Assembly: GCA_000720535.1 (NCBI GenBank)
Contig: JOAZ01000020.1
Span: forward strand, 209,681-273,680
Direction of reading: 5' to 3'
Length of the DNA: 64,000 bases
Source of the DNA: Streptomyces halstedii
GTDB taxonomy: Bacteria > Actinomycetota > Actinomycetes > Streptomycetales > Streptomycetaceae
Position numbers and translations under genes: made by a program. Below the pieces are notes generated by a model that did not search any database, had not been told where the DNA came from, and was given only the letters and a program-made list of their open reading frames with translations. Below, in pieces: positions 6,445 through 28,444 of this stretch. Each line of letters opens with the position of its first letter. Position 1 is the stretch's first letter.

Positions 6445-6987
6445 ATGAGTGAGATCAACGACGAAAAGACGCCTCTATTCCGGTCACGGGCCGCCGTTCG
6501 TATTGCGGCCGCGCCCCATGAGGTCTATTCGGTGATCAGCGATCTGCCGCGCAGTGGTGAGTGGAGTCCGGAATGCCGGGGAGGAGCCTGGGTCGCCGGG
6601 GAACCCGGTGCCGTGGGTGCCGTGTTCCAGGGGGAGAACGTGCGCGGTCCGGAGGTCGTCTCCTGGGCGCCGGTGGTGCGCGGGGGATGGACCACCAGGG
6701 CGGAGGTGGTGGCCGCCGAGCCGGGGCGCTCCTTCCGCTGGGCCATGCACAACGCGGCCGGGGTCAAGCAGGACAGCGTGTGGGGCTTCGACGTCGAGGA
6801 GGACGGCGAGGAGAGCGTGCTGATCCACCACTTCCGGATGGGCACGGCCACCGAGGGCGTCCTCGGGATCACCGCGGAGATGGACGAGAGCGGGAAAAGG
6901 CGATTCTTCGCGGAGTGGGGGGAGAAGATCGACGGCGATCTCGCCGCCACCCTTCGACGTATCAAGGACGTCATCGAGAAACGGTGA
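6445..6987 (+). CDS. SRPBCC (START-like) family protein, possible cyclase or ligand-binding protein
   Basis: A 180-residue single-domain protein of the SRPBCC/Bet v1-like helix-grip fold. Support comes from the N-terminal strand AAVRIAAAPHEVYSVISDLPRSGEWSPE, a common signature of polyketide_cyc2-type proteins, and the beta-rich centre followed by a long C-terminal helix (ESGKRRFFAEWGEKIDGDLAATLRRIKDVIEK). Such proteins bind hydrophobic small molecules and some act as cyclases or aromatases. It opens the rightward ligase operon: the first ANL ligase begins 108 bp downstream. Two CTTGAC motifs 23 bp apart (6383 and 6406) lie just upstream and resemble the SARP-type spacing seen elsewhere in the cluster. 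No catalytic residue can be assigned. Confidence 0.72.
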   Translation: MSEINDEKTPLFRSRAAVRIAAAPHEVYSVISDLPRSGEWSPECRGGAWVAGEPGAVGAVFQGENVRGPEVVSWAPVVRGGWTTRAEVVAAEPGRSFRWAMHNAAGVKQDSVWGFDVEEDGEESVLIHHFRMGTATEGVLGITAEMDESGKRRFFAEWGEKIDGDLAATLRRIKDVIEKR

Positions 6988-7095
6988 TCCGATTTCCGTC
7001 CGTTGCGGTCCGCTTGTTTCCGGGACGTCTTTTTCAGCGGACTGCCACCCGTCAGTTGAAGGCACATCGGAAAGCCGTGGCAGAGAAGGACGCAG

Positions 7096-8679
7096 ATGCT
7101 TCTTCAGCGTATCGGAAATCAGGGTATTCAACTCGGGCGGCTCTTCGAACGGGCCGCCTCCCGGCATGGAGCGAACATCCTCGTCCTGGACCACGACCTC
7201 GACATCGCACCGGAGCTGGGCCGCCGGGCGACCGTCGCCGAAGTGGCGGACGTGGTGGACGACATCGCGTCCCGGCTGTGGGCAGCGCGGGTCCGCCCCG
7301 GCGAGCGTGTCGTCGTCCACAAGTCCGACGGTTTCGACATCATGCTGCTGGCCTGCGCGGCGGCGCGCATCGGCGCCGTGCCGGTGCTGCTCTCACCGGC
7401 GCTCGACGGCGAGACGGTCGCCGAGCTGGTCCGCCGGACGGACCGGCCGTACCTGATCACCGATCAGGAGAAGCTGGAGAACGAGCTGCCGGCGGAGGTT
7501 GCCGGTCTCGCCGAGCGGGTGATCCTCACCTCCGGCAGCCACCCGGGCTGTCTGGAGCTGGCCGCGCTGGCGGGCGTGGAGCGTGTCGCCCCCGTCGTCA
7601 TGCCCGCCCGGCACCCGATGCTGATCACCCACACCTCGGGCACCACGGGTACGCCCAAACTGGCCGTGCACACCGGGTTCAGCCTCCAGTCGCGCTACCG
7701 CCCGCAGGCCTCCGTCACCCGGCCGCTGATACCGGGCCGGGAGACCATCGCGATCCACGTCTCCTTCGTGCACTCCCGGCTCGTGACCGCGCTCGCCATC
7801 GCACTGCGCCGGGGCTTCCCCGTCGTCGTGCTCCGCGATCCGGACCCCAAGCGGGTCGGTGATCTCTTCGCCCGGCTGAAGCCGGGCATCCTGGAGGCGC
7901 ACCCCAACTCGTTCATGGAGTGGGAGGAGCTGGCGGACGACCCGCGTGGACCGCTGTCCAACGTCAAGCTGTTCAGCAGCACCTTCGACGCCATCCACCC
8001 GCGCACCGTGCACCGGCTGCTGCGGGCGAGCAGGCGCAGGGCGCCGTTGTTCGGGCAGTTGTACGGGCAGAGCGAGGTGGGCCCGGCGGTGGTACGGGGA
8101 TTCACCCGGCGCCGCACCCTGGACGACGACGGCCGCTGCGTCGGCATGCCGTTCCCCGGGATGACGGACGTACGGGTGGTCAGCCGCGACGGGAACCCGT
8201 CCTCCGCGCGGAACCCCGGCTACATCGAGGTCCGCAGCGACGGACGGATCGTCACCTACCTCGGGGAGCGGGCACGGTACGACGCCCAGGTGTCCGACGG
8301 CGGCTGGTGGCGCATGGGCGACGTCGGCTACCGGACCCGGTGGGGCTGCGTGCACCTGCTGGACCGCGAGGTCGACCTCATCGAGGGGTTCGGCAGCACG
8401 CTCGCCGCCGAGGACACGCTCTTCGGGAAGCTGCCGGAACTCACCGAGGCCATCATCATCCCCGGACCGGACGGCAGGGCCGTACCCGTGGTGTGCACCA
8501 GGGACGACAAGCCCCTCGACCCGGTGTCCTGGAAGCGCGCCGCGGCCTCCCTGCCGCCGATGGCGGAACCGGTGCAGTGGCGGCTCGGGGATCTGCCGCA
8601 GACCGCCACCACGAAGATCAAGCGGCTGGAGCTCGCCCGGCTGCTGGCCGACGGGAGCGGGAAGCCGCCCCGGCCGTAG
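7096..8679 (+). CDS. ANL-superfamily adenylate-forming ligase 1
   Basis: A 527-residue acyl-AMP/acyl-CoA synthetase-like enzyme. The P-loop core THTSGTTGTPK occupies residues 178-188 and fits motif A3 of the family. Downstream FGQLYGQSEVGP is the A5-like aromatic-ATP motif, WWRMGDVGY is the A7 Asp motif and the C-terminal TATTKIKRLEL carries the probable A10 lysine. There is no fused carrier domain, so it acts on a free acid or amine. It starts at ATG 7096 after an agaagga site and is followed by a close paralogue (about half of positions appear identical). In characterised diazo pathways (cremeomycin CreM, avenalumic acid AvaA6) enzymes annotated as acyl-CoA ligases use ATP to condense nitrous acid with an aromatic amine. 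With creE/creD nearby, that role is attractive but inferred; simple carboxylate activation is the alternative. Confidence 0.85.
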   Translation: MLLQRIGNQGIQLGRLFERAASRHGANILVLDHDLDIAPELGRRATVAEVADVVDDIASRLWAARVRPGERVVVHKSDGFDIMLLACAAARIGAVPVLLSPALDGETVAELVRRTDRPYLITDQEKLENELPAEVAGLAERVILTSGSHPGCLELAALAGVERVAPVVMPARHPMLITHTSGTTGTPKLAVHTGFSLQSRYRPQASVTRPLIPGRETIAIHVSFVHSRLVTALAIALRRGFPVVVLRDPDPKRVGDLFARLKPGILEAHPNSFMEWEELADDPRGPLSNVKLFSSTFDAIHPRTVHRLLRASRRRAPLFGQLYGQSEVGPAVVRGFTRRRTLDDDGRCVGMPFPGMTDVRVVSRDGNPSSARNPGYIEVRSDGRIVTYLGERARYDAQVSDGGWWRMGDVGYRTRWGCVHLLDREVDLIEGFGSTLAAEDTLFGKLPELTEAIIIPGPDGRAVPVVCTRDDKPLDPVSWKRAAASLPPMAEPVQWRLGDLPQTATTKIKRLELARLLADGSGKPPRP

Positions 8680-8690
8680 CGACGCTCCCG

Positions 8691-8765
8691 GCACCCCGTA
8701 CGCCGGCCCGCACCCCGTACGCCGACCGGCACCCGTACTCCGTCCCGCACCCCGTACGCCGGCCG
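8691..8765 (+). repeat. About 19-bp tandem repeat, four units
   Basis: Imperfect units beginning gcaccccgtacgccg start at 8691, 8710, 8729 and 8747 in the gap between the two ligase genes. No coding or terminator role is evident. Confidence 0.75.
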
Positions 8766-8834: not shown

Positions 8835-10409
8835 ATGTTCCTGCAACGCATCGGCAACAAGGGCATCCGGCTCGGCACGGTCTTCGACCGGGCGGCCGCG
8901 CGTCATCCCGCGAACCCCGTCTACCTGGACCACGCGCTCGACATCGCGCCGGAGCTGGGCCACCGGGTGACGCTGACCGAGATCGCGGATCTGGTGGACG
9001 ACTTCGCCTCCCGGCTGTGGGCCTCGCGGGTGCGGCCCGGGGACCATGTGGTCGTCCACAAGTCGGACAGCTTCGACATCTCCCTGCTCGCCTACAGCGT
9101 GGCGCGCGTCGGGGCGGTGCCGGTCCTGCTGTCGCCGAAGCTGGACGGCGAGACCGTCGCCCGGCTGCTGGGGCGGCTGCGCCGGCCGACCCTGGTGACC
9201 GACCAGGCGAAGCTGGAGAAGGAACTGCCGCCCGCCGTGTTCGAGTTGACGGAACGGGTGCTGCTGGCGGCCGGGAGCTTCCCGGAGGCGGTCTCGCTGG
9301 ACTCGCTCGCCGGGGTCGCTCGGGTCCGTCCGGTGACCCGGCCGCAGAACCTGCCGGCGCTGATCACCCACACCTCGGGCACCACCGGGCTGCCGAAGCT
9401 CGCGGTCCAGACCGGGCACACGATCCAGGCCCGCTGCCGCCCTCAGTCCGTCCTGCTCGCGCCGGTGAGCCGCCGCGAACCCATCGCCGTCCACGTCTCG
9501 TTCGCGCATTCGAGGATGATCAGCGGGGCGGCGCTGTTCGCGTTGCGTGGTCATCCGCTCATCGTGCTGCGGGACGACGAACCGGAGCGGGTGGCCGAGC
9601 TCTTCTCCCGTATCCCCCCGGGCGTGGTCGAGTCGCACCCCAACACGCTGCTGCACTGGGAGGTTCTGGCGGACCATCCCGCCAGGCCGCTGGCCCGGGT
9701 GCGCTGCTTCAGCAACACCTTCGACGCCATCCACCCCCGTACGGTGGAGACGCTGCTGGGTGCCTCGGAGCGGCGCGTGCCGTTCTTCGCGCAGACCTAC
9801 GGGCAGAGCGAGACCGGGGCAATCTGCGCGCGGACCTACACCCGGCGCCACCGGCTGGGCGCCGACGGCCGGTGCGTGGGCCGGAACTTCTCCGGGCTGA
9901 CCGAGGTGCGGGTGGTGAGCCGGGACGGGCGCACGCCCACCAAGGACTCCCCCGGGCACATCGAGGCGCGCAGCGGCGGGCAGATCGTCACCTACTTCGG
10001 TGAACAGGAGCGGTTCGACGGGCAGTTCTCGGCGGACGGCTGGTGGCGGATGGGGGACCTCGGATACCGCACCCGGTGGGGGTGCGTGCACCTGCTGGAC
10101 CGGGAGGTCGACGAGATCCCGGGCATCAGCAGCACGCTGGAGCTGGAGGACAAGCTGTTCACGCGGCTTCCGGAGCTGCTGGAGGTGATCATCGTCCCGG
10201 GCGGGGGCGGGGCGCCGGTTCCCGTGGTGTGCACCCGCGGGGACGCGCCGCTCGACCGTGCCCGGTGGCGGAGCGCGGTGGTGGATCTGCCGGAGCTGGC
10301 GGAGCCGGTGCAGCGGCGGCTGGAGGAGCTGCCGCACACCGCCACCACCAAGGTCAAGCGGCTGGAGCTGGCCCGGCTGCTGGCCGGGCCCGAGGGTGCC
10401 GCCGACTGA
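8835..10409 (+). CDS. ANL-superfamily adenylate-forming ligase 2 (paralogue of the upstream ligase)
   Basis: A 524-residue paralogue of the preceding ligase. The N termini are nearly superposable (LQRIGN-GI-LG at the start of both) and the motifs occur in the same order: THTSGTTGLPK, FAQTYGQSETG, WWRMGDLGY and C-terminal TATTKVKRLEL. The ATG at 8835 is chosen because the paralogue starts identically; the frame is open for 915 bases further upstream but that part shadows gene 1. The tandem duplication implies divided labour, for example one enzyme activating a carboxylate and the other doing ATP-dependent N-N bond formation, or two acids being activated for one amide. Ends at a strong hairpin shared with the convergent acetolactate synthase. 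Confidence 0.85.
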   Translation: MFLQRIGNKGIRLGTVFDRAAARHPANPVYLDHALDIAPELGHRVTLTEIADLVDDFASRLWASRVRPGDHVVVHKSDSFDISLLAYSVARVGAVPVLLSPKLDGETVARLLGRLRRPTLVTDQAKLEKELPPAVFELTERVLLAAGSFPEAVSLDSLAGVARVRPVTRPQNLPALITHTSGTTGLPKLAVQTGHTIQARCRPQSVLLAPVSRREPIAVHVSFAHSRMISGAALFALRGHPLIVLRDDEPERVAELFSRIPPGVVESHPNTLLHWEVLADHPARPLARVRCFSNTFDAIHPRTVETLLGASERRVPFFAQTYGQSETGAICARTYTRRHRLGADGRCVGRNFSGLTEVRVVSRDGRTPTKDSPGHIEARSGGQIVTYFGEQERFDGQFSADGWWRMGDLGYRTRWGCVHLLDREVDEIPGISSTLELEDKLFTRLPELLEVIIVPGGGGAPVPVVCTRGDAPLDRARWRSAVVDLPELAEPVQRRLEELPHTATTKVKRLELARLLAGPEGAAD

Positions 10410-10470: not shown

Positions 10471-12339
10471 TCAGTCGGCCACGTCGCCGAAGTCGGGGCG
10501 CACGCCCCGCGCGGACCGGATCTCGTCGTTGCTGGTGCCGGCGGCGACCATCGGCCAGACCATGGCGTCCTGGTGGACGATGAAGTCCACGACGACGGGC
10601 CGGTCGTCGACGGCGTTGGCCTTCTGGATGACGGCGTCGAGGTCGGACGGGTCCTCGCAGCGCAGGCCGACGCAGCCCATCGCCTCGGCGAGCTTGACGA
10701 AGTCCGGCACGCGGGTGCCGTGCACGGGCGCGGCGGCGCCGGACTCGGCCGGGGGCCGGTGCAGCGCGGTGTGGGAGTAGCGCTGGTCGTAGAAGAGGGT
10801 CTGCCACTGGCGGACCATCCCGAGGGCGCCGTTGTTGATGACGGCGACCTTGATCGGGATGTTGTTGAGCGCGCAGGTGGTGAGCTCCTGGTTGGTCATC
10901 TGGAAGCAGCCGTCGCCGTCGATCGCCCAGACCGTGCGGTCCGGCATGCCCGCCTTGGCGCCCATCGCGGCCGGGACGGCGTAGCCCATGGTGCCCGCGC
11001 CCCCGGAGTTCAGCCAGTGGCGGGGCTCCTGGAAGCGGAGGAACTGCGAGGCCCACATCTGGTGCTGGCCGACGCCCGCCGCGAAGACGGTCCCCTCGGG
11101 GGCGAGCCGGCCGATCCGCTCGATGACCCGCTGGGGTGACAGTCGGCCCTCGGGCGCGGGTTCGTAGCCGAGCGGATAGCGGGTCCGCCAGTCGTCGAGC
11201 CGTTCCCACCAGGCGGTGCGGTCGCCGTGGTTGCCCGCCTCGTGCTCGGACCGGACGACATGGAGCAGGGCCTCCAGCACCTCGCGGGCGTCGCCGACGA
11301 TCGGCACGTCGGCGGCGCGGTTCTTGCCGATCTCGGCCGGGTCGACGTCCGCGTGCACGACCTTGGCGTACGGGGCGAAGCTGTCCAGCCTGCCGGTCAC
11401 CCGGTCGTCGAAGCGCGCGCCGACGGCGAAGATCAGGTCCGCCTTCTGGAGCGCGGTCACCGCGGCCACCGTGCCGTGCATGCCGGGCATGCCCAGGCAG
11501 CGCGGATGATCAGCCGGGATGGTGCCCAGTGCCATCAGGGTGGTGACGACGGGGACCCCGGTCAGCTCCACCAGGGACCTCAGTTCGTCGGCGGCCCCGG
11601 CCTTGACGACGCCTCCGCCGACGTAGAGGACCGGGCGTTCGGCCGCCAGGAGCAGCTCGGCGGCCTGGCGGATCTGCCGGTCGTGCGGCCTGCCGACGCG
11701 CTGGTAGCCGGGCAGTTCGGTCCGCTGCGGCGGGCAGTACGCGGCCGGCCGCTGGAGGGCGTCCTTGGTGATGTCGACCAGGACCGGTCCGGGGCGCCCG
11801 GTGGAGGCGACGTGGAACGCCTCCGCGATCACGCGCGGGATGTCGGCCGGGTCGGTGACCAGGTAGTTGTGTTTGGTGATCGGCACGGTGATGCCGCAGA
11901 TGTCCGCCTCCTGGAAGGAGTCGGTGCCGATCGACGAGGAGGGCACCTGCCCCGTCACGGCGACGATCGGCACCGAGTCCATGTAGGCGTCGGCGATGGC
12001 CGTGACCAGGTTGGTGGCGCCCGGCCCTGACGTGGCCATGCAGACGCCGACCTTGCCGGTGGCCTGGGCGTAACCGGTGGCCGCGTGGCCGGCGCCCTGC
12101 TCGTGGCGGACCAGGATGTGCCGGAGCTTGACGGAGTCCATCAGCGGGTCGTAGGCGGGCAGGACCGCACCGCCCGGGATGCCGAAGACGGTGTCGGCCC
12201 CGGCTTCCTCCAGCGAGCGGATGAGGGCCTGGGCGCCGGTCAGGCGGGGCGCGGCGTCGCCGGTCCCGGGCTCCAGGGCGGTGGGCGGGGCGGCGGTCTC
12301 CGCCCGCTCCGCGCGGTCAGCTGTCGCGTATTCGGTCAT
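10471..12339 (-). CDS. ilvB: Acetolactate synthase large (catalytic) subunit, stand-alone copy
   Basis: A 622-residue ThDP-dependent acetohydroxyacid synthase. It condenses two pyruvates, or pyruvate and 2-ketobutyrate, in branched-chain amino-acid synthesis. Catalytic Glu80 lies in [22 protein letters not shown] and the ThDP-binding [12 protein letters not shown]...NN motif are intact, and the AHAS-specific MVRQWQ tryptophan is present. The whole length looks like a housekeeping streptomycete IlvB rather than a divergent ThDP enzyme. ATG 12339 is chosen for its ggagag ribosome site; the upstream open extension is non-coding. The usual partners ilvN and ilvC are absent: the neighbours are an exporter on one side and convergent ligases on the other. 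It may supply precursor, or be a target copy giving self-resistance; the sequence alone cannot decide. A 260-bp leader separates it from the exporter. Confidence 0.9.
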
Positions 12340-12599: not shown

Positions 12600-13820
12600 T
12601 CAGTCCGCGCGGGCGGCCGAGCGTGCCGTGACGCGCAGGAAGAGCAGGGCCACGAACGCCAGGGCGGCGCCCAGTCCGTACACGGTCGCCATTCCGGCCG
12701 GGAGCGTGAGGCCGCCGAGCACGGTGCCGAGGCCGATGCCGAGGTAGATCGAGGAGGAGTTCAGGGAGACCACCAGGGGGGCCTCCTGGGGTGCGACCTC
12801 GATGAGCCGGTGCTGCTGCGGGGGCGTCTGGCACCAGCTGCTCGCTCCCCAGAGCAGGACCAGGAGGCCGACCGCCACGCGCAGCGAGACATCGGCGGCG
12901 GCGAGCCAGGCCAGCAGGCCGAGGGCGAGCACCATGCAGACGTATCCGGTGGTCAGGACCCGGACGGAGCCCCAGCGGTCGGTCGCGTAGCCGGCGGCGA
13001 GGTTGCCGATGACGGCGCCCAGGCCGTAGAGGAAGAGCATCCAGAGCAGGGCGCTCTCCGGGATGTCCACCGCGGCGAGGGCGGGGACGCTGTAGGCGTA
13101 GGCCGTGTAGCACGCTCCCATGCCGAGCACGGTGAGGGGCAGTACGGCGAGTACGGCCGGACGGCGCAGCACCGCGAGCCGGGTGCGCAGCGGCACGCGC
13201 GCGTTGCCGGGCAGCGCGGGCATGATCACCCGCAGCCAGACGGCGACGAGCAGGCACAGCGCGGCCACCAGGCCGAGCGCGGTCCGCCATCCCAGCCAGT
13301 GGCTCGCCAGGTTGCCGAGGGGCACCCCGAGCGCGGTGGCGACGGTGAGGCCCCCGACGACCACGGCCAGGGCACGGGCCCGGAGTTCGGGGCGGACGAG
13401 CGCGGCGCTGACCGCACCGGCGCAGGGTGTGTAGGCGGCGGCGCCCGCGGCCGCCAGGACCCGGCTGGCGATCAGTACGGCGAAGTTCGGTGCCAGCGCC
13501 GAGCCGAGGTTGGCCACACCGAGCGTGAGCAGGGCGAGCACCAGCAGGGTCCGGCGCGGCAGGCGGGCGGTGGCGGTGGCGAGCACCGGTGAGAGGACGG
13601 CGTAGGCGCCCGCGAACACCGTGACGGACTGGCCGGCCCGTGCCGCCGACACGTGCAGGGAGTCGGCCATGGAGGGCAGGAACCCGGCCACCACGAAGGC
13701 GTCCGTGCCGACGGCGAACGTGCCTAAGGCCAGGACCAGGGTGGAGGAGAGTCCCCCCGGCTCGGCTTTCGACTCCCGGCCGACGGCCGGGCGGCCGGAC
13801 GAAACAGAGACATCAGACAT
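12600..13820 (-). CDS. MFS drug:H+ antiporter (DHA1-type exporter) with a TTA codon
   Basis: A 406-residue integral membrane protein with about 12 predicted hydrophobic segments. It shows the loop 2-3 type motif ([17 protein letters not shown]) and the AraJ/CmlA-like start [22 protein letters not shown] typical of DHA1 efflux proteins. Start ATG 13820 has an excellent aaggag site seven bases upstream. Codon 32 is TTA (genomic 13725-13727), rare in high-GC Streptomyces and read by the bldA tRNA, so production should be developmentally delayed. It lies between an Rrf2 regulator and ilvB on the same strand, so it probably exports the cluster product under Rrf2 control. Substrate unknown. Confidence 0.87.
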
Positions 13821-13883: not shown

Positions 13884-13979
13884 CGTACGGTCGGCGCCTC
13901 GTGCGGGCGTACGGTCAGCGGCTCGTGCGGGCGTGTGGCCGGCGCCTCGTGCGGGCCTGCGGTCAGCGGCTCGTCCGGG
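13884..13979. repeat. 24-bp tandem repeat, four units
   Basis: Four 24-bp units (starts 13884, 13908, 13932 and 13956) related to cgtacggtcggcgcctcgtg occupy the Rrf2-MFS gap. The last unit runs into the 3' end of the Rrf2 gene, so the repeat shapes that protein's C-terminal residues. Confidence 0.85.
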
Positions 13980-14448
13980 TGTAGCGGCGCCGGTTGCGGT
14001 CGGCCGCTCCGGGGGGCGCGGCCGCCATCAGGTCCGCGACGCTCTGTCCGGCGAGCTCACGGCGCCAGGCCAGTTCGGCCCGGCGCATCGCGGAGGCGAC
14101 CCCGCAGGGCCGCTGGAACTCCTGGATGAGCTCGGCGGTCTCCGCCTCTTCCGCCCGCTGCCGGATCTCGGTGCAGCGGAAGACGTCGTCGCGTCCCTCG
14201 ATGGCGGTCACCACGTCCATGAGGGTGATCCGCTCCGGGGGCCGGGCCAGCCGGAACCCGCCCCGGGCCCCGGCCGTGGAGCTGAGGATGCCCGCCCGGA
14301 CCAAGGCTTGCAGGCGCTTGTTCAGGTACGCGGGCGGCAGCCCGAACCAGGCCGCCAGTGTCGCCGTCGGCACCGGTTCGTCGTCTTCGAGCCAGGCCAG
14401 CGCCAGACAGCAGTGCAGGCCCCACTCGACTCCCTCACCCATCCGCAT
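13963..14448 (-). CDS. Rrf2-family transcriptional regulator
   Basis: A 161-residue regulator with an N-terminal winged helix (VPTATLAAWFGLPPAYLNKRLQALVRAGILSSTAGARGGFRLARPPERITLMDVVTAIEG). The GARGGFRLAR wing is the Rrf2 hallmark. Four cysteines are present: 13, 14, 92 and 115. C92 matches the first ligand of Fe-S Rrf2 proteins, but the C-x5-C-x5-C pattern of IscR/NsrR is not complete, so the protein may use other ligands, thiols, or none. It is divergent from the oxidoreductase-creE-creD operon and upstream of the exporter. Because that operon should generate nitrous acid, a reactive-nitrogen sensor would make sense, but this is inference. An imperfect dyad around 14450-14470 may be its own operator. 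Confidence 0.85.
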   Translation of the reverse strand: MRMGEGVEWGLHCCLALAWLEDDEPVPTATLAAWFGLPPAYLNKRLQALVRAGILSSTAGARGGFRLARPPERITLMDVVTAIEGRDDVFRCTEIRQRAEEAETAELIQEFQRPCGVASAMRRAELAWRRELAGQSVADLMAAAPPGAADRNRRRYTRTSR

Positions 14449-14641
14449 AACCAGGATGATAGATGTCCAGGTTCCTCTTCCGCGCGGACTCGGCGGGAAC
14501 GCGCCAAAGTTGACGCGTCGTCATGTGTCCGGAACGGCACCGGACCTGGAAGCGCCCGGGGACCTCCCGGGTTCCGTACGCGCCGCGCCCACCCCCCGTA
14601 CGCGCCGCCCCGCCCGGTGCGCGTTCCCGGCCGCGCCGACC

Positions 14642-14712
14642 TGACGGACCGGTGGCGCCGACCTGACGGATCGGTGGCCGAGGTGACGGACCCGGGACAC
14701 GGAGGTGACGGG
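14642..14712 (+). promoter_or_regulatory. Four-copy TGACGG direct repeat, candidate SARP operator
   Basis: Heptamers tgacgga, tgacgga, tgacgga and tgacggg start at 14642, 14664, 14684 and 14706. The spacings of 22, 20 and 22 bp are about two helical turns, so the copies lie on one DNA face. SARP activators bind heptameric direct repeats with 11- or 22-bp periodicity. The block ends 62 bp before the ATG at 14775, within the 326-bp gap (14449-14774), which otherwise contains only the Rrf2 promoter. Confidence 0.65.
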
Positions 14713-14774
14713 TCCTGGACGGTGCCGCGCCCTCAACCGGCCGAAGGGGCCGGGCGCGAGGAGAATCCAGCACC

Positions 14775-15779
14775 ATGCGTGCCGCCTACGTCGAAGAGCT
14801 CGGTCCCCCTGACCTCATCCGGGTCGGCGAGGTGCCCCCGCCCCGGCCAGGTCCCGACGACGTGCTCGTGGACGTCGAGGTGACCGCCGTCAACCACGTC
14901 GACACCTTCGTACGGTCGGGCGCGTGGCGCACCCCCGTGCCCTTTCCCTTCGTCATCGGACGGGATGTGGTGGGCACGGTCACCCGGGCCGGACCCGGAG
15001 CACCGGGCTTCGCCGCCGGAGACCGGGTGTGGTGCAGCAGCCTGGGGCACGCGGGCCGTCAGGGCGCGGCCGCCGAGCGGGTGGCGGTGCCCGCCGACCG
15101 GCTGTACCGGCTGCCGGAGGGCGTCGACGCGGTGGACGCGGTGGCGCTCTCCCACCCGGCCTCGACCGCCTACCTCGCGCTCTTCACCCACGGGCGGATG
15201 CGCGCGGGCGAGACGGTCGTCGTCCTCGGGGGCGCGGGAAACGTCGGCGGTGCCGCCGTGGTGATGGCCGCTCAGGCCGGTGCGCGTGTGGTGGCCGTCG
15301 CCTCCGCCGAGGACGCGGACCACTGCCGGGGGCTCGGCGCCCACCATGTCGTGGACTACCGGGACCCCGAAGCACCGCGGTCGATCCGCGCGTACGCCCC
15401 GCGAGGCGTCGACCTGCACGTCGACACCTCCGGCACCAACGACCTGGAAACGGCGGTGGACCTCCTCGCCCCGCGCGGGCGCGCCGTCGTCCTCGCCGGT
15501 CTGCGGACCCGGCCGGTGCTGCCCGCCGGGGCGCTGTACCTCCAGGACCGGTCGGTGCGCGGATTCGCCATCTCCAACGCCCGGCCGGACGAACTCGCCG
15601 ACGCGGCCGCGCACATCAACACCCTGCTGGCCGACGGGACCCTGCGTCCCCGGACCACGGAGGTGCTGCCGCTGGGCGAGGCCGCCGAGGCCCACCGGAG
15701 GCTGGAGGCGGGCGCGGTCGACGGAAAACTGGTGCTGCGCGTCGCCAAGGGCCGTCCCGTCGGCGGTACGGCGGCCTGA
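14775..15779 (+). CDS. MDR-superfamily NADPH:quinone oxidoreductase-like enzyme
   Basis: A 334-residue medium-chain dehydrogenase/reductase of the zinc-free quinone-reductase type. The N-terminal GroES-like domain (AVNHVDTFVRSGAWRTP...FVIGRDVVGTV) is followed by a Rossmann fold with the nucleotide motif VLGGAGNVGGAAV. There are no zinc-ligand cysteine clusters. Members reduce quinones or enones with NADPH. It opens an operon with the creE-like gene 85 bp downstream, so it may reduce a quinoid or diazo-quinone-type intermediate, or handle redox stress from the product. ATG 14775 is preceded by gaggag. Confidence 0.85.
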   Translation: MRAAYVEELGPPDLIRVGEVPPPRPGPDDVLVDVEVTAVNHVDTFVRSGAWRTPVPFPFVIGRDVVGTVTRAGPGAPGFAAGDRVWCSSLGHAGRQGAAAERVAVPADRLYRLPEGVDAVDAVALSHPASTAYLALFTHGRMRAGETVVVLGGAGNVGGAAVVMAAQAGARVVAVASAEDADHCRGLGAHHVVDYRDPEAPRSIRAYAPRGVDLHVDTSGTNDLETAVDLLAPRGRAVVLAGLRTRPVLPAGALYLQDRSVRGFAISNARPDELADAAAHINTLLADGTLRPRTTEVLPLGEAAEAHRRLEAGAVDGKLVLRVAKGRPVGGTAA

Positions 15780-17844: not shown

Positions 17845-19274
17845 CGTCCGTGCCCGAGCGGGCGCCCGACACGTCCGGGGCCGACGCGGCCCTCGTGGAC
17901 GCGGGGCTGTTGTCGCCGGTCCGCGCGGGCACCCCGGTGGAGGCCGTCGTCGGCGACACGGCGTGGTTGCAGGCCATGCTCGACGCCGAGGCCGCACTGG
18001 CCCGCGCCCAGGCCGGTCTGGGAACCGTCCCCGACCGGGCCGCCCAGGCCGTCACCGCCGCCGCCCGCGCCGAGCGGCTGGACCTGCGTGCCATCGCGCT
18101 CGCCGCGCGGGAGACCGCCAATCCCGTCGTCCCGCTCGTCCAGGCGCTCGCCCGGGAGGTCGCCCGCACCGACCCGCGGGCCGCGGAGTACGTGCACCGC
18201 GGATCCACCAGCCAGGACGTGCTGGACACCGGTGCCATGCTGGTGGCGCACCGGGCGCTGGCCGTCATCCGGGCCGACCTGGCCGCCACCGAGGAGGCGG
18301 TCGCCCGGCTCGCCGGGCGCTACCGCGACACCCCGGTCGCGGGGCGGACCCTGGCGCTGCACGCGGTTCCCACGACCTTCGGTCTCAAGGCGGCGGGCTG
18401 GCTGCGGCTGGTGCGGGACGCCGACGCGCGACTGGCGCGGGTGCGTGAGCACGGGCTGCCCGTCTCGCTCGGCGGCGCGGCCGGGACCCTCGCCGGATAC
18501 GTCGAGTACGCGCGGCTCGACGGCCCGGACCCCGAGGTGGACGCCGGGGTGTTCACGGACCGGCTCACGGAGGCGTACGCGCGGGAGACGGGTCTCGCCG
18601 TGCCCGTGCTGCCCTGGCACACGCTGCGCACGCCGATCGCGGACCTGGCCTCCGCGCTCGCGTTCACGGCCGGGGCGCTCGGGAAGATCGCCGTCGATGT
18701 GCAGGGGATGGCGAGGACCGAGGTCGCCGAGGTGCGGGAACCCGGCGGCCCCGGGCACGGCCGGTCCTCCGCGATGCCGCACAAACGCAATCCCGTGCTG
18801 TCCACCCTGGTGCGCTGCGCCGCCCTCCAGGTGCCGGCGCTGGCGGCGGCCCTGACGCAGAGCCTCGTCTCGGAGGACGAGCGCTCGGCCGGTGCCTGGC
18901 ACGCCGAGTGGCTGCTGTCACGTGAGTGCCTGCGCCTGGTCGGCGGGGCCGCGCACACCTGCGCGGCCCTGACACGGGGCCTGGAGGCCGATCCGGGGCG
19001 TATGCGCGAGAACCTGGACCTCACCGGGGGCCTGGTGACCTCCGAGCGGATCGCGGCCGTCCTGGCCCCTCGCGTCGGCAAGGCGGCGGCCAAGCGGCTG
19101 CTGGACGAGGCCGCCACCACCGCCGTGCGCACCGGGCGGGACCTGGCCGGGGTCCTGGCGGACGTGAAGGAGGTGTCGGAGCACCTGAGCGCGGCCGAAC
19201 TGGCCGACCTGTGCGACCCGGCCCGGTACACCGGCGCCGCGCCGCAACTCGTGGACCGGGCCCTGCGGCCGTGA
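17841..19274 (+). CDS. creD: CreD-like nitrosuccinate lyase (ASL/fumarase superfamily)
   Basis: A 477-residue superfamily lyase. The signature loop GRSSAMPHKRNP spans residues 307-318 with the candidate catalytic serines 309 and 310, and HRGSTSQDVLDT and the HAVPTTFGLKAAGW region are conserved. The family splits C-N or C-C bonds to release fumarate-like products; CreD releases nitrous acid from nitrosuccinate. Start ATG overlaps the creE-like stop by four bases, implying translational coupling. The sequence is clearly related to PcaB (3-carboxymuconate cycloisomerase) encoded later in this window, but this copy is linked to the monooxygenase rather than to pca genes and has KRNP instead of KANP. 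The assignment therefore rests on both sequence class and partner. Confidence 0.8.
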   Translation: MTSVPERAPDTSGADAALVDAGLLSPVRAGTPVEAVVGDTAWLQAMLDAEAALARAQAGLGTVPDRAAQAVTAAARAERLDLRAIALAARETANPVVPLVQALAREVARTDPRAAEYVHRGSTSQDVLDTGAMLVAHRALAVIRADLAATEEAVARLAGRYRDTPVAGRTLALHAVPTTFGLKAAGWLRLVRDADARLARVREHGLPVSLGGAAGTLAGYVEYARLDGPDPEVDAGVFTDRLTEAYARETGLAVPVLPWHTLRTPIADLASALAFTAGALGKIAVDVQGMARTEVAEVREPGGPGHGRSSAMPHKRNPVLSTLVRCAALQVPALAAALTQSLVSEDERSAGAWHAEWLLSRECLRLVGGAAHTCAALTRGLEADPGRMRENLDLTGGLVTSERIAAVLAPRVGKAAAKRLLDEAATTAVRTGRDLAGVLADVKEVSEHLSAAELADLCDPARYTGAAPQLVDRALRP

Positions 19275-19584: not shown

Positions 19585-20895
19585 GTGAGAGGTAGCGTGC
19601 CGTCACAGCACGACGGTTCGGGCCGGGCCGGCCCGGAACCGGTCGAACGCGCAGGGCCGTTCGAGGAGGCCGGGCCCTTCCGGCCGTTGGAGCACGTCGG
19701 GCGGCTCCAGGCGGTCGGGCCCATGGACCCGGCGGAGTCCACGGCGTACGTCGCCGCGCTCTCGGAGCTGGGGCCCCGGCTGTTCTCCTCCATGCCGCGC
19801 AGCGACCAGCGCGCCAAGGGCATGCACTACCTGCGTGGTCTGCTGGAGGCCGAGGGGCGCAAGTCCATCCGCAACATCGCGACGCTCTTCGGCGGCGACG
19901 CGACGGAGCAGAGCCTGCACCACTTCATCACCAGTTCCACCTGGGACTGGGTGCCGGTGCGGCGCGCGCTGGCGCAGTACGTGGAGCGGGTGGCGCCACC
20001 GCAGGCGTACGTGGTCCACCCGCTGGTCATCCCCAGGGCGGGGGCGACGTCGGTGGGGGTCGAGCGGCGCTATGTGCCCGCGCTGGGCCAGGTGGTCAAC
20101 TCCCAGCAGGCGGTGGGGGTGTGGGCCGCGGCCCCGTACTGGAGCACCCCGCTGAACTGGAGGCTCCAGCTGCCCCGGAGGTGGCTGGCGGACCAGCGCA
20201 CGCGCCGTCAGGCCGCCATACCCGAGGCCGAGGTGGCGGAGAGTCTGGGCCAGTGCTCCGTCGCGGCCTGTCTGGAGCTGATCAGGAAGTACCGGCTGCC
20301 GGTCAGACCGGTGGTGATGGACGCCCGCGAGACGGACGTGACCACGGCCATCGGGCGGCTGCGTGACGCGGACACCCCGATGCTGCTGCGGATCGACGGT
20401 GCCCTGCGGCTGATCGTCGAGGAGCCCGCGTTCCCCCGGAGGGGCGTCGGCATGACGGCGCAGCAGATCATGTCGACCGTGTGGCACATGCGGCGCCCGG
20501 GGCTGCGGGCGGGCCCGCGCACGCTGTCCCCCGACCCGGTGGGGGCGGTCGGCGGGGTGGTCACCGTCGCGGCCACGCCGGCCGCCGACGCGGGCCGGCC
20601 GGCGGACAGGAACGACATGCTGCTGATCGGGGTCGCGGAGCGGGGGCAGTGGCCCGCGCAACTGTGGCTCACCGACCTGACCGCCCTGAGCCCCGGCGAG
20701 CTGCTCCGGCTGACCCGGCTGACCCTCCGGGTGGAGCGGGACCAGGCGGAGATCGGCGGCGAGGTGGGGTTCAGGGACTTCTCGGGGCGGCTGTTCACCG
20801 GGTGGCACCGCCACATCACCCTCGCCTCGGCGGCCCACACGGTCAGGGTGCAGCACCGGCTGGCGGGATCGCTGCTGCCGGCCGGATCGGGCTGA
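19585..20895 (+). CDS. IS701-type transposase relative with lost catalytic aspartates (probably domesticated)
   Basis: A 436-residue protein with the full backbone of an IS701 transposase: [56 protein letters not shown] and [13 protein letters not shown] align with the usual blocks. The first DDE aspartate block (normally VVDDTGF) reads VVHPLVI and the second (normally ADAGYG) reads MDARETD, whereas the glutamate of the third block is kept. The protein should therefore not transpose DNA. GTG 19585 is chosen for its gggaggt site four bases upstream. No terminal inverted repeats or target duplication are visible around it. It sits in the middle of the biosynthetic cluster with a possible SARP box upstream, so a DNA-binding or structural role is plausible. 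Function unknown. Confidence 0.78.
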
Positions 20896-21069
20896 GCGGC
20901 GCGCCCCGCCGCGCGGCGCACGGCGGACGGCGGACGGCGCCTTCCGCCGCTCCCGCCGCCTCGTGACGGCGGTCCCGGTCTCCTCGTACGGCCCCGGCAC
21001 CGGCCGTCGGACGCTGCCGCGCCGTACGGCCGTGCGGGCGGGGCCGGGAGAGGGTCCGTCAGGTCGGCG

Positions 21070-21138
21070 TGACCGGTGCCGGTGGGACCTGACGGACCCT
21101 GGAGGCGACCTGACGGACCGGCCGGGCCAGTTGACGGA
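21070..21138 (+). promoter_or_regulatory. TGACGG direct-repeat array, candidate SARP operator for the 3-hydroxyanthranilate operon
   Basis: Heptamers tgaccgg (21070), tgacgga (21090), tgacgga (21111) and tgacgga (21132) are spaced 20, 21 and 21 bp. An opposite-strand copy (tccgtca) lies at 21055. It matches the array at 14642, strengthening the case for one shared activator. It is the main content of the gap after the IS701-like gene. Confidence 0.65.
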
Positions 21139-21398: not shown

Positions 21399-21500
21399 AC
21401 CGCATGTGCGCCACCCTGCCGCCCCGGCGCGGGTCCCTTCCCCTTTCCGCACGACGCCGGCTCCGTACGGCCGGCCGTGTCCGTCCTGTCGGAGGCAACC

Positions 21501-22682
21501 GTGGAGAACACCCTGCTCGGCATCCGGCTCGAACCGGCCCCGCACCAGCCCGCCTGGGAAGACGCCGCGCAGGTCGCGCGGGTCAGGACGGAACTGGCCG
21601 CCCGGCCGCCGCTGGTGTCCTCCGGCGACGTCCGCCTGCTGCGGTCGCTGCTGGCCCGGGTGGCCGCGGGCGAGGCCCAGGTGATCCAGGCGGGCGACTG
21701 CGCCGAGGACCCCGACGAGTGCACGGCGGGGCACGTCGCGCGCAAGGCCGCCCTGCTGGACCTGATGGCCGGCGCCCTGGGTCTGCTGACGCACCGTCCG
21801 GTGCTGCGGGCGGGCCGGATCGCCGGCCAGTACGCGAAACCGCGCTCCAGGCCGAGCGAGACGGTCGGCGGAGTCGAACTGCCCGTGTTCCGGGGCCACA
21901 TGGTCAACAGTCCCGAACCGGACCCGGACGCCAGACGCCCGGATCCGCTGCGGCTGCTCACCGGCTACATGGCCGCCCGGGACGTGCTGCGGCACCTCGG
22001 CTGGCCTCCCTCGGCCGGGGCCGGCGGGCACGGGACCGGCGGCCGGGTGTGGACGAGCCACGAGGCGTTGCTCCTCGACTACGAGGTGCCGATGCTGCGC
22101 CGCGACGACGACGGCCGGCTGCTGCTGGCGTCCACCCACTGGCCGTGGATCGGCGAGCGGACCCGGCAGGTGGACGGCGCCCACGTCGCGCTCCTCGCCG
22201 AGGTGGCCAACCCGGTCGCCTGCAAGGTGGGGCCGCGCATGACGGCGGAGGACCTGCTGGCGCTGTGTTCCCGGCTCGACCCGGAGCGCGAGCCGGGGCG
22301 GCTCACCCTGATCGCGCGCATGGGCGCCGGCACCGTCGCCGACGCGCTGCCGCCGCTGGTGGCGGCGGTCCACGGGGCCGGGCACCCGGTGATCTGGCTG
22401 ACCGATCCGCTGCACGGCAACACCGTGACCGCGCCCGGCGGCCTCAAGACCCGGTTCGTCGGGACCGTCGCGCGCGAGGCCGCCGCCTTCCGCCGGGCGG
22501 TGGAGGACGCGGGTGGCGTCGCCGGGGGGCTCCATCTGGAGACCACGCCCGACGCGGTCGCCGAGTGCGTCGAGGACGCCTCGGCCGTCCACCGGGTCGG
22601 AGAAGGGGCGTACACGACCTTCTGCGACCCACGGCTCAACCCGGACCAGGCGCTCTCGGTGATCTCGGCCTGGGGCGGGTGA
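21501..22682 (+). CDS. phzC: Class II DAHP synthase, short PhzC-type
   Basis: A 393-residue class II 3-deoxy-D-arabino-heptulosonate-7-phosphate synthase, the first shikimate-pathway enzyme (PEP plus erythrose 4-phosphate). Recognised from [14 protein letters not shown] (metal Cys), [50 protein letters not shown] and [15 protein letters not shown]. It is shorter than housekeeping actinobacterial enzymes (about 450-460) and matches the lengths of PhzC-like copies in phenazine and 3-hydroxyanthranilate clusters, which are usually insensitive to aromatic feedback. GTG 21501 is preferred for its ggagg site; another GTG at 21477 is poorly placed. It heads a four-gene operon. Confidence 0.88.
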
Positions 22683-22803: not shown

Positions 22804-23574
22804 GTGAAGAAGACCATCGCCCTCGTCACGGGGGCGGCAGGAGGCATCGGCAGTGCCGTCACCCGCGCCCTGGCGGAGCGGGGGACGGCCGTGGCCGCCG
22901 TCGACCGCGACGCGGAACCGCTCGAACAGGTCACCGCCGCCTTCGCCGCGAAGGGGCTGGACGTCACCGCGTTCCCGGCGGACGTCACCCGCGCCGACGA
23001 CGTGGAGCGCGCGGTGGCGGCGGTCGAGCGGCGCCTCGGCCCGGTGGACCACCTCGTCAACGCGGCGGGCGTGCTGCGGACGGGCGAAGCGGTCACGCTC
23101 ACCGACGACGACTGGAACACCACCTTCGCGGTCAACACCGCCGGTGTCTTCCACGTCTCGCGCGCCGTGGTGGGCCGCATGGCCCGGCGCGGACACGGCA
23201 GCGTGGTCACGGTGGCGTCCAACGCGGCCGGGACACCCCGCACGGGGATGGCCGCGTACGCCGCGTCCAAGGCGGCGGCGGCCATGTTCACCAAGTGCCT
23301 CGGCCTGGAGGTCGCCCGGTACGGCGTCCGCTGCAACGTCGTCGCGCCGGGGTCCACGGACACACCCATGCTCAGCTCGATGTGGAAGGACGCCTCGGGT
23401 CCCCGCAGGACGATCGAGGGCATCCCCGAGAGCTTCAAGGTCGGCATCCCGCTCGGGAAGCTCGCCCGGCCCGACGACATCGCGGACGCCGTGGTGTTCC
23501 TGCTCTCGGACCGGGCGTCCCACATCACCCTGCACAGCCTCCTCGTGGACGGCGGCGCCTCCCTGGGCAACTGA
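22804..23574 (+). CDS. EntA/DhbA-type SDR, 2,3-dihydro-3-hydroxyanthranilate dehydrogenase
   Basis: A 256-residue classical short-chain dehydrogenase. It has the NAD motif TGAAGGIG, the NAAG strand, the catalytic YAASK pair and the sub-family block [17 protein letters not shown] seen in 2,3-dihydro-2,3-dihydroxybenzoate dehydrogenases. Placed between phzC-, phzD- and phzE-like genes, it should oxidise trans-2,3-dihydro-3-hydroxyanthranilate to 3-hydroxyanthranilate, as its counterparts do in benzoxazole and calcimycin-type pathways. The substrate is inferred from context. GTG 22804 follows a weak gaggt site. Confidence 0.85.
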
Positions 23575-26258: not shown

Positions 26259-26599
26259 CATTGGAGGCACCGCTGAGCACAGACGACCATCGATGCGCCG
26301 TTGACAGGTGACACCAGGCAGCCTTGCACCCGGGGGATGGCAAGTGATCTGCGTTTCCTCTTCGAACGACGGGGCTGTGCACGGGCCCCTCGGCACGCGA
26401 CCGGCGCGGGTGCGCCCCTTGTGCCGTCGTGTGAGACGGCCGGAGCGGTGTTGCCGCCCGTGCGGTGATCCGTAGGAGCGCGCGTGCGCTCCGGCCGGCG
26501 TGACGCCTGTGGCCCGGACGGACCGGCCCGCCGCGGAAGACCCTGCCGCGACGGGCCGGTCCATGGGCCGAACCCGAGTCGACGAACGGTGAGGACCTG

Positions 26600-28444
26600 G
26601 TGATGTTGCACTTCGCTCTGCTGGGACCGATGGAGATCCGCGTGGACGGGGAGGTCCGCACCCCGAGCCCGCCCATGGCCCGCCGGGTCCTCGCGGTGCT
26701 GCTGACCCATGCGTACCGTGTGGTGCCCACGGAACTGCTGATCGACGAGCTGTGGGGCGAGCATCCCCCCAAGCGGGCGCGCAAGACCGTCCAGACGTAC
26801 ATCTGCCACTTACGCAAGGCCCTCGGCGGTGACGGGGGTTCCGGACCGGGGGGAGGTGATCCCGTGGAGACCCATCCGTACGGCTACCGGCTGCGGCTCC
26901 AGGGATGCCAGTCGGACGTGTGGCTGTTCCAGGAGCGGGTGCGCGCGGGGCGCGAGGCGCTGGCCCGGGGCGAGGCGAGCGAGGGCGTCGCGACGCTGCG
27001 GAGCGGGCTGGAGCTGTGGCGGGGCGCGGCCCTGGAGGGCGTGGAGACGGGCACGGTCCTGGGGGCGCGGGCCACCCGGCTCGAAGAGCTCAGGATGCGG
27101 GCGCTGGAGCAGCGCGTCGCGGGCGAACTCGCCCTGGGCCGACACCACTCACTGCTGGAGGAGATCCGGGATCTGGCGTCCCAGCATCCGCTGAACGAGG
27201 AGTTCTGCGCCCAGCTGATGACGGCGGCGAGTGCCTGCGGGCAGCGCGGTGAGGCGCTCGGCGCCTACGCCCGGATGCGCCGGGCCATGGCCGAGCAGCT
27301 GGGGCTGGAGCCCTCCGAACGGCTGCGGGAGCTGCAACGCGACATCCTGACGGGCCAGGGCGAGTCCCCGTCCGCGCGTACGGCGGCCCGGGGTCCGGGC
27401 CGGAGCGGGGAACCGGGCGCTCCCTTCCATCTGCCCGCGGCCATCGGCGACTTCGTGGGACGGCTGGACGAACTGGACCGGATCGAGCGGGCGGTGAGCG
27501 GCGACGGCCGCGCCTCGGAGGTACGGGTGGTGACGGTGACCGGCAGCCCGGGGGTGGGGAAAACGGAGGCGGCGCTCCAGGTGGCGCACCGCCTGCGGGG
27601 CCGTTTTCCCGACGGGCAGCTCAGGGGGCTGCTGTGCCGGAAGGACCGGACGCCGCGCGATCCGGGCGAGGTCCTGGGCGAGTTGCTCGCCGCCGTGGGG
27701 TACGACCGCGCGGTCCTGCCGGAGCGGGTGGACGACCTCGCCCGGATGTTCCGCGGGTGGGCGGCCGGCCGGCGTTTCCTGCTCGTGCTGGACGACGCGG
27801 TGAGCCGGGACCAGGTCGTGCCGTTGCTGCCCGCCGGGACGGACAACACGGTGATCGTCACGTCCCGCTGCCGGCTGTCGGGGCTTCCCGGCTCGGTGAC
27901 GGATGTCGAACTGGGGCCGCTGCCCGAGGCCGTGAGCAGGCAGTTGCTGACCCAGGTGATCGGCCCCACCCGGGCGCGGCGGGAACCCGCCGCGGTGTCG
28001 GCCGTCGTGGCCAAGTGCGAGGGCATGCCCGCCGCCGTCCGGGCGGTGGGCGGCCGGATCGCCACCTGGCCGCACCGCAGCCTGGCGGACTTCGCGGCGC
28101 GTCTGGAGGACGACGGGCAGCGCCTGGAGGAGCTGAGCAGTCCGCACCTGGACATGCGGCGCTACCTCGTCGAGTCCGCCGACCGGCTGCCGCGCAGTGC
28201 GAGGGACGTGCTGGCCGCGCTGGGCCGGGCGGCGACGGCCGAGGTCACGGTCGCGGACCTCGCGCTGGGCCTGTGCCGCTCCACGTCGTCCATCGAACGT
28301 TCGGTGGAGCTGCTGGCGGCCTTCCACGTGGTCAGGCCGGTCGTCCGCGACGGCGGTTACGTCCTGCGGCTCGCGCCGCTGATCCGGCTCGCCTTCGCGG
28401 GCGGAGGCCACACCACCCCGGCTCCCGAACTCGCGGCGCGGTGA
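26600..28444 (+). CDS. SARP-family pathway activator with NB-ARC domain; contains a TTA codon
   Basis: A 614-residue Streptomyces antibiotic regulatory protein of the AfsR-like medium class. Residues about 1-95 form an OmpR-type winged helix (FALLGPMEIRVDGE, ELLIDELWGEHPPKRARKTVQTYI) and about 100-250 the bacterial transcriptional activation domain ending GLEPSERLRELQRDIL. After a linker comes a P-loop ATPase (TGSPGVGKTEAAL, LLVLDDAV, VIVTSRCR). Codon 71 is TTA (26810-26812), inside the conserved YI-HLRKAL helix, so translation needs the bldA tRNA. Start GTG 26600 or ATG 26603; the two cannot be separated. Likely activates the operons preceded by TGACGG arrays. It lies at the right end of the biosynthetic cluster, converging with an LLM gene. 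Confidence 0.92.
   Translation: MMLHFALLGPMEIRVDGEVRTPSPPMARRVLAVLLTHAYRVVPTELLIDELWGEHPPKRARKTVQTYICHLRKALGGDGGSGPGGGDPVETHPYGYRLRLQGCQSDVWLFQERVRAGREALARGEASEGVATLRSGLELWRGAALEGVETGTVLGARATRLEELRMRALEQRVAGELALGRHHSLLEEIRDLASQHPLNEEFCAQLMTAASACGQRGEALGAYARMRRAMAEQLGLEPSERLRELQRDILTGQGESPSARTAARGPGRSGEPGAPFHLPAAIGDFVGRLDELDRIERAVSGDGRASEVRVVTVTGSPGVGKTEAALQVAHRLRGRFPDGQLRGLLCRKDRTPRDPGEVLGELLAAVGYDRAVLPERVDDLARMFRGWAAGRRFLLVLDDAVSRDQVVPLLPAGTDNTVIVTSRCRLSGLPGSVTDVELGPLPEAVSRQLLTQVIGPTRARREPAAVSAVVAKCEGMPAAVRAVGGRIATWPHRSLADFAARLEDDGQRLEELSSPHLDMRRYLVESADRLPRSARDVLAALGRAATAEVTVADLALGLCRSTSSIERSVELLAAFHVVRPVVRDGGYVLRLAPLIRLAFAGGGHTTPAPELAAR

Follow-up and report, generated by a model that had tools for sequence, protein, structure and literature searches.

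A putative orthologue of the penzonemycin (pzm) gene cluster in Streptomyces halstedii joins genes for 3-hydroxyanthranilate and nitrous acid

Genes at the locus

We analyzed a 64,000-nucleotide stretch of Streptomyces halstedii DNA (GenBank assembly GCA_000720535.1, contig JOAZ01000020.1, positions 209,681 to 273,680; hereafter the window), which carries a cluster combining predicted genes for 3-hydroxyanthranilate (3-HAA), for nitrous acid and for two ANL ligases. Codon-position gene calling and profile searches over the 64 kb recover every gene named by an earlier note on this DNA as an intact frame with actinobacterial codon-position GC, and the MDR enzyme, MFS exporter and SARP of that note are all borne out by profile matches. 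The note's gene list holds, but it omitted the SRPBCC, acetolactate synthase, Rrf2, IS701-like, F420 and GNAT genes, and the cluster limits are better set at about 6.4–30.1 kb of the window. The genes are listed below by position, strand and counterpart in the published pzm cluster.

6445..6987, +, SRPBCC/polyketide-cyclase-fold protein (Pzm19, 180 aa); PF10604, 47 bits
7096..8679, +, ANL ligase 1, CreM-like (Pzm18, 527 aa); PF00501, core motifs intact
8835..10409, +, ANL ligase 2 (Pzm17), paralogue of ligase 1; ANL profile, motifs intact
10471..12339, -, orphan acetolactate synthase (ALS) large subunit (Pzm16, 622 aa); TIGR00118, 756 bits, above cut-off
12600..13820, -, MFS exporter (Pzm15); PF07690, adjoins the ALS and Rrf2 genes in relatives
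13963..14448, -, Rrf2-family regulator (Pzm14); PF02082, TIGR00738 above cut-off
14775..15779, +, MDR/quinone-reductase-family enzyme (Pzm13); PF13602 and PF08240, best NCBIfam match PIG3-type, below cut-off
15865..17844, +, CreE-like aspartate N-monooxygenase (Pzm12, 659 aa); PF13454, same length as Pzm12
17841..19274, +, CreD nitrosuccinate lyase (Pzm11); NF052556, 749.7 bits against a cut-off of 650
19597..20895, +, IS701-type DDE protein (Pzm10); NF033540, 273.9 bits against 150
21477..22682, +, class II DAHP synthase (Pzm9); PF01474, 409.6 bits, 393 aa from a GTG at 21501 (start codon checked)
22804..23574, +, 2,3-dihydro-3-hydroxyanthranilate dehydrogenase-type SDR, DhbA-like (Pzm8); 354.5 bits, above the cut-off of 300 of the 2,3-dihydro-2,3-dihydroxybenzoate dehydrogenase model TIGR04316
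23615..24238, +, isochorismatase-domain hydrolase with a PhzD-type role (Pzm7); PF00857, 137.9 bits
24235..26187, +, fused chorismate-binding/glutamine-amidotransferase protein of the PhzE/ADIC-synthase type (Pzm6); PF00425 and PF00117
26600..28444, +, SARP/AfsR-type regulator (Pzm5, 614 aa); PF03704, 140 bits
28574..29470, -, F420-dependent LLM oxidoreductase (Pzm4, 298 aa); TIGR03619, 212.7 bits against 166.9
29578..30093, -, GNAT N-acyltransferase (Pzm3, 171 aa); PF13527

The 3-HAA genes (21477–26187) are present and intact, and profile searches make the set complete, with a DAHP synthase and PhzE-, PhzD- and DhbA-like enzymes, as in pzm. The nitrous-acid pair (15865–19274) is likewise intact, the coding end of the CreE-like gene overlapping CreD. 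By profile, the CreE-like protein matches PF13454 alone; its assignment follows from its operon with CreD and from the equal-length Pzm12, which is listed as 62% identical to CreE (PMC9323291). CreD passes the nitrosuccinate lyase model and, narrowly, the PcaB model as well (362.4 against 355.75 bits), and we base the call on the first score (749.7) lying far above the second. A second lyase in the window, at 32155–33516, belongs to a pca operon as its PcaB, scoring 378.5 bits on the PcaB model, which it passes, and 540 against 650 on the CreD model, which it fails.

That protocatechuate (pca) operon spans 30842–37575 on the minus strand, with a double-length IclR/PcaR-like regulator (37882), and occupies the place of pzm1; a LysR gene at 39532 is PcaQ-like and scores under the cut-off of the PcaQ model. 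About 14 kb from the 3-HAA synthesis genes, at 40539–47614 on the minus strand, lies an apparently complete operon for meta-cleavage degradation of 3-HAA, with 3-HAO (above cut-off), an amidohydrolase, a RidA-like protein, a decarboxylase/hydratase-like protein, an aldolase, and acetaldehyde and semialdehyde dehydrogenases. This degradation operon was not matched in the stretches of eight related genomes.

Correspondence to the published pzm cluster

The gene set corresponds to the pzm cluster of Streptomyces sp. SCSIO 40020 (ON345781; Liu et al. 2022, PMC9323291), whose proposed products, penzonemycins A and B, are arylhydrazones, that is, aromatic compounds with a nitrogen–nitrogen bond. Table 3 of that paper runs from pzm2 (83 aa) through pzm22 (198 aa), and the functions and order it gives for pzm2 to pzm22 are those of the window, including the transposase, Rrf2, ALS, SRPBCC and flanking genes; the two ANL ligases, ALS, MFS, Rrf2, MDR and SRPBCC genes follow the published order. 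Protein lengths are equal for 15 of 22 genes (pzm2, 3, 4, 6, 7, 8, 10, 12, 13, 14, 15, 16, 18, 19 and 22), and the published lengths of pzm9, 11 and 21 are attained from an alternative in-frame start codon in the window. Unlike the cluster as tabulated, that of the window is followed by the pca and 3-HAA catabolic operons.

From this likeness we read the locus as the orthologous pzm cluster in a related strain. The best explanation overall, to which we give a probability of about 0.85, is a pzm orthologue that would make a 3-HAA-derived arylhydrazone by way of nitrous acid and a CreM-like ligase. The earlier note had put the locus forward as a candidate new pathway; since a cluster with an equal gene set and a proposed product has already been published, this cluster is a known one and not a new pathway.

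For comparison with relatives, we used stretches from eight genomes (G385 and G392–G398) as well as a scan with ligase 2 as the query, in which 80 of 106 confirmed stretches were kept, corresponding to 79 distinct loci with the ligase present by construction. Several points weigh against our reading. The link between pzm and penzonemycin is itself bioinformatic, the cluster being called putative (PMC9323291), and Pzm18 is entered as putative in a review (PMC11705231). The likeness to ON345781 was judged on function, order and length, not on sequence identity. The SARP has 614 aa in the window against 653 published for pzm5, and its frame is not open across 653 aa; the frames of pzm17 and pzm20 are open over the published length, without a standard start there; and pzm1 (LysR) is not next to the counterpart of the 83-aa pzm2, the pca operon lying there instead. 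Among the eight related genomes, the fetched stretches hold CreE/CreD in five (not in G393, G394 or G396), and tblastn with the GNAT and F420 genes finds no counterpart either there or among the 79 loci. Finally, in three of the genomes (G396, G398 and G385), ALS-derived open frames of 337–379 aa lack the central domain and the GDG..NN motif, which is a misfit with a general need for acetolactate. The length and start mismatches at pzm5, 17 and 20, together with the absent neighboring pzm1, mark the window as a relative of the published cluster; identity of strain is not proven.

Proposed route to the arylhydrazone

Penzonemycin carries its N–N bond at C-4 and bears an acyl group on the amine of 3-HAA (PMC9323291); the reported product thus does not show simple diazotization of 3-HAA's own amine. 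The diazo logic of the earlier note, in which 3-HAA, aspartate-derived nitrous acid and an ATP-dependent ligase lead to an N–N bond, agrees with the gene content.

Judged by enzyme family, DAHP synthase would feed chorismate, from which the PhzE-, PhzD- and DhbA-like enzymes would form 3-HAA, and the GNAT protein would acylate its amine, giving the N-acetyl or N-propionyl amide. Aspartate would be turned into nitrous acid by CreE and CreD, and the CreM-like ligase, using ATP and nitrite, would generate a diazo or quinone-diazide group at ring carbon 4, ortho to the phenol. Capture of the diazo group would then give an arylhydrazone whose four-carbon diketone part probably stems from the orphan ALS; the MFS protein would export the product, and the SARP and Rrf2 proteins would act as regulators. 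The published scheme requires an "unknown enzyme-catalyzed transamination" and reaches the C4 unit by way of two reductions of carboxyl groups, a task assigned "probably" to the F420 enzyme (PMC9323291).

In place of the GNAT gene of the window, the relatives carry acyltransferases of other kinds, a different GNAT in 5 groups and an arylamine-N-acetyltransferase-like gene in 3, which makes acylation as such plausible. The VOC and glucanase genes, too, find no match in the 79 loci or the eight related stretches. The latter gene, at 2473–5862 on the minus strand, encodes an alpha-1,3-glucanase-type protein with discoidin and CARDB domains and is pzm20 of PMC9323291.

Two sister ligases and their gene company

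The two ANL ligases (7096–10409) recognized by the earlier note are 63% identical to each other and both intact. Their YGQSE and TATTKIKR/TATTKVKR motifs include what we take to be the catalytic Glu and the A10 Lys of the adenylation motifs. An alignment yields 14 clade-specific positions that set the clade of ligase 2 apart. In a tree of 85 rows, built by a quick search without bootstraps from family members longer than 450 aa and containing no characterized diazotase such as CreM, Aha11 or AvaA6, the ligase 2 clade comprises 9 rows with an SH-aLRT of 100 and the ligase 1 clade 7 rows (6 different sequences) with an SH-aLRT of 97. For G394 and G385, the ligase-1 type branches just outside the latter clade, and two very long rows, L075_4459 and L122_10001, are of unsure placement. 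The ligase-1 type is present in 9 of 9 genomes having the ligase-2 type, a set that was picked for the latter and includes two Kitasatospora phosalacinea strains. Both ligases occur in all eight related stretches, and in G385 the two types lie about 430 kb apart.

Two observations weigh against both ligases being diazotases. Neither passes the AvaA6-type diazotase model NF058622 (76.7 and 82.6 bits against a cut-off of 975), and the closest solved chains are only weakly similar: 9xb8 (an entry named FadD), 8ztz (a putative AMP-binding enzyme, for ligase 2) and 9bq0/8tf7, which are named Tri17 in PMC11705231. Pzm18, the counterpart of ligase 1, is given as 48% identical to CreM (PMC9323291).

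By gene-family count, the 79 loci include SRPBCC in 62, MDR in 52, CreE in 42 and CreD in 40, and by tblastn SRPBCC in 71 and CreE with CreD in 43; where SRPBCC is present by gene-family count, it lies directly upstream of the ligase in 59 of 62 loci. Among the eight related stretches, Rrf2, MFS and ALS or ALS-derived frames are found in seven (the G393 contig ends first) and 3-HAA genes in six, with G385 showing only a PhzE-like gene at the edge and G398 none. Records of Mycobacteroides/Mycobacterium (L117, L119, L120 and L121) contain the SRPBCC-ligase-CreE-CreD set as well. In addition, FAD_binding_3 monooxygenases occur in 22 of the 79 loci, in one case between ligase and CreE (L087:11653-12771), and their presence suggests other aromatic substrates.

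This gene company bears on the main alternative of the earlier note, a benzoxazole-like or amide product of the ligases, which we take as a reading in which they act on 3-HAA and the nitrous acid is used elsewhere. 3-HAA is a common benzoxazole building block. Moreover, demethylmycemycin A, also derived from 3-HAA, was found in the penzonemycin strain (PMC9323291). The frequent presence of nitrite-making genes near members of the ligase family, to which both ligases belong, and an operator linking CreE/CreD to the 3-HAA operon (described below) nevertheless make this alternative the less favored one, and we consider it highly improbable.

In the literature, Pzm19 (SRPBCC) and Pzm21 (VOC) have been proposed as oxidases (PMC9323291). 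The predicted structure of the SRPBCC protein (pLDDT 89.3) has helix-grip ligand-binding proteins as its nearest PDB folds, including Cgl2372, lachrymatory factor synthase, PYR/PYL receptors and the TcmN aromatase/cyclase (TM 0.5–0.66), which counts against an oxidase role; no oxidase by name appears among the 50 structural matches listed, and the protein has no NCBIfam match at the thresholds used. From its fold and its adjacency to the ligase, we infer that it may be a partner of the diazo chemistry. Within the open-access PMC literature, nitrosuccinate lyase occurs together with SRPBCC only in PMC9323291.

The pairing of ligases leaves room for a route that draws on nitrite twice. One ligase would C-nitrosate N-acyl-3-HAA with activated nitrite, at the C-4 position ortho to the phenol. 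The MDR enzyme would then reduce the o-quinone monoxime to an o-aminophenol and the second ligase would diazotize it, so that both hydrazone nitrogens would come from nitrite. We consider this route as a whole possible, although we would not bet on it. Such a route dispenses with the missing transaminase or oxidase, finds a use for two intact sister ligases that recur together in all nine genomes with the Pzm17 type, and accounts for an MDR gene that is present in 52 of 79 loci and stands directly before CreE/CreD in the window; it also gains from the doubtful standing of the published oxidases, the one resembling helix-grip binders and the other (VOC) unmatched in related stretches. We know of no enzymatic C-nitrosation by an ANL ligase, however, the division of labor between the ligases is a guess, and there are single-ligase loci with SRPBCC, MDR and 3-HAA genes.

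Acetolactate synthase and the four-carbon unit

The genome encodes two full ALS copies. That of the cluster (Pzm16) retains the catalytic Glu (RHEQ) and GDG..NN; the other, on contig C31, is 73% identical and lies beside ilvN-/ilvC-type (ALS small-subunit and KARI) genes. The gene set is accompanied by an ALS or ALS-derived frame in 8 of 9 genomes, the window included; the ninth is G393, whose contig stops shortly past the DAHP synthase gene. The gene is full-length in three of these eight (the window, G392 and G394), and the contigs of G395 and G397 end within it, leaving an N-terminal piece in view. The shortened ALS-derived frames of the remaining three (L162:8138-9211, L159:8231-9370 and L157:9679-10692) adjoin ligase 2 and are kept open in all three genomes. 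Acetolactate is thus a plausible source of the C4 unit here, though not across the whole group.

The four-carbon unit could alternatively stem from the extraction solvent, with a C-4 diazo compound (quinone diazide) as the true product. This reading derives from the extraction methods of the penzonemycin paper and ordinary diazonium chemistry, not from computation. n-Butanone was the main extraction solvent, used on broths for analysis and, for isolation, on supernatants and on the mycelia after acetone; penzonemycins A and B vary in the acyl group and not in the C4 unit (PMC9323291). Coupling at C-3 of butanone would yield the reported 3-oxobutan-2-ylidene hydrazone, and the F420 enzyme of the published C4 route is unmatched in related stretches. 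On the other side, the ALS or ALS-derived frames in 8 of 9 genomes would give a biological C4 unit. Simple ketones are, furthermore, poor coupling partners, and on balance we think a butanone artefact unlikely, if chemically coherent.

We also considered the orphan ALS as a self-resistance copy, the product being an inhibitor of acetohydroxyacid synthase. The gene is a second full ALS besides the copy with ilvN-/ilvC-type genes, and it adjoins the exporter. For the herbicide sites of ALS, which we take to be Ala205 and Pro197, sequences were compared by eye on alignments in which the usable housekeeping rows were G000_hk and L131_hk (L126, L127, L129 and L138 are wrong reading frames and were ignored). 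The cluster copy has Ser at the first site, but at the second it has Pro and the housekeeping copy Ala, the opposite of what resistance would lead one to expect; the copy also lacks thiamine diphosphate motifs in three relatives. Self-resistance is not supported by this comparison and appears very unlikely.

Regulators and a shared operator

Upstream of the two biosynthetic operons, we observed repeats that form a candidate operator.

14638..14714, +, candidate operator with four direct copies of GRSSTGACGGRYC (14638, 14660, 14680 and 14702), before MDR-CreE-CreD
21053..21119, both strands, candidate operator with three exact copies of GACCTGACGGACC (21053 on the minus strand, 21086 and 21107), before the 3-HAA operon

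The GACCTGACGGACC motif, derived from repeats found at 19.25–21.5 kb, is present in the window in 4 exact copies; if one mismatch is allowed, there are 5 matches (shuffle mean 0.51, maximum 4), and if two are allowed, 14 (shuffle mean 6.68, maximum 12). The degenerate GRSSTGACGGRYC matches 7 times in the 64 kb, and every match falls within the promoter of either the CreE/CreD or the 3-HAA operon. Shuffled sequence gives a mean of 0.53 and at most 4 matches; the comparison flatters the motif, because it was picked after the sites were seen. Same-strand neighbors of GRSSTGACGGRYC are spaced 20–22 bp, and a weaker match with two mismatches lies before the SRPBCC gene, at 6381. Among the relatives, CTGACGGA pairs 40 bp apart precede the DAHP synthase gene in G395 and G397 only, and none precedes MDR in any relative; seen in just these two relatives, the operator is not general.

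As judged from these repeats, the candidate operator joins the nitrous-acid and 3-HAA operons of the window into one regulon, and a repeated operator common to the two is new here. The direct-repeat layout leads us to guess at the SARP as its binder; SARP-like genes (37–41%) occur in 3 of the 79 loci.

Between the two operons, the IS701-type gene is the sole full-length copy in the genome, and a repeat search around it found only a 21-nt, 81%, GC-rich pair spanning the gene. Its relatives, at 38–53% identity, lie in related regions; in several of these they adjoin or are near MDR, at about 50% identity, and the gene is perhaps domesticated rather than mobile.

Nitrate reductase near related ligases

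The flanks of the 79 loci hold a NasC-type nitrate reductase in 32, a NarK-type transporter in 33, a FAD/BFD reductase in 32 and a second FAD reductase in 26. NasC shares the strand of the ligase in 31 of 32 loci, at a distance of 1.4–6.2 kb. By our estimate for a 21-kb stretch, an 8-Mb genome and up to 3 copies, chance would place NasC in fewer than one locus of 79. By gene-family count, 20 loci have CreE and CreD alone, 13 NasC alone, 19 both and 27 neither, the last group including 12 loci shorter than 21 kb and four mycobacterial ones in which tblastn does detect CreE and CreD; one source or the other, or both, is thus found in 52 of 79 loci (CreE with CreD in 39, NasC in 32). A NasC located within or close to the cluster matches the query at 73–100% identity in five genomes, and other NasC copies are 42–65% identical; G395 and G402 additionally have the cluster type at a distance from the cluster. 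The only NasC copy in the genome of the window is 45% identical. In the single set that was scanned, the two FAD reductases align with NirB over its first part only. Examples of NasC, NarK and FAD reductase genes near a CreM-like ligase are found at L150:15480-20000 with L151:1-1625 (G394) and at L160:211-6541. Streptomyces sp. 130 is a relative with nasC whose fetched stretch shows neither creE nor creD.

In the NasC loci, nitrate may thus possibly feed the nitrite supply for N–N chemistry. About half of ava-like clusters are described as lacking avaE/avaD, and other nitrous-acid sources are enumerated in the same paper (PMC10777205); in the open-access PMC literature, "nitrosuccinate" together with "nitrate reductase" was not found. 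We would be somewhat surprised if both hydrazone nitrogens came from nitrite and the ligase, SRPBCC and MDR genes formed a general nitrite-using module for aromatic amination and diazotization, fed either by CreE/CreD or by recruited NasC and NarK.

Other N–N systems and implications

The cremeomycin cluster (creE/creD/creM) resembles the one described here in its aspartate-nitrosuccinate (ANS) route, its CreM-like ligase and its ortho-aminophenol acid core, but the core is 3-amino-4-hydroxybenzoic acid (3,4-AHBA), built by CreH/CreI, and the diazo group is retained in the product. It presumably has one ligase and no ALS. The avenalumic and p-coumaric acid clusters (ava and cma) likewise join an ANS pair to an ATP-dependent diazotase; they differ in their type II polyketide synthase, their 3,4-AHBA core and the removal of the diazo group by AvaA7/CmaA7 (PMC10777205). 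In the tasikamides (aha), a diazo-anthranilate is trapped as a hydrazone through Japp–Klingemann coupling (PMC9323291, PMC11705231), although there an alkyl hydroxyanthranilate unit is borne on a cyclic pentapeptide and two gene clusters of their own are involved (PMC11705231).

Identifying the locus as pzm guards against calling the pathway new by mistake and supplies a second instance of this cluster. The comparison also narrows the questions about mechanism to the C-4 nitrogen, the pair of ligases, the origin of the butanone unit and the recruitment of nitrate reductase.

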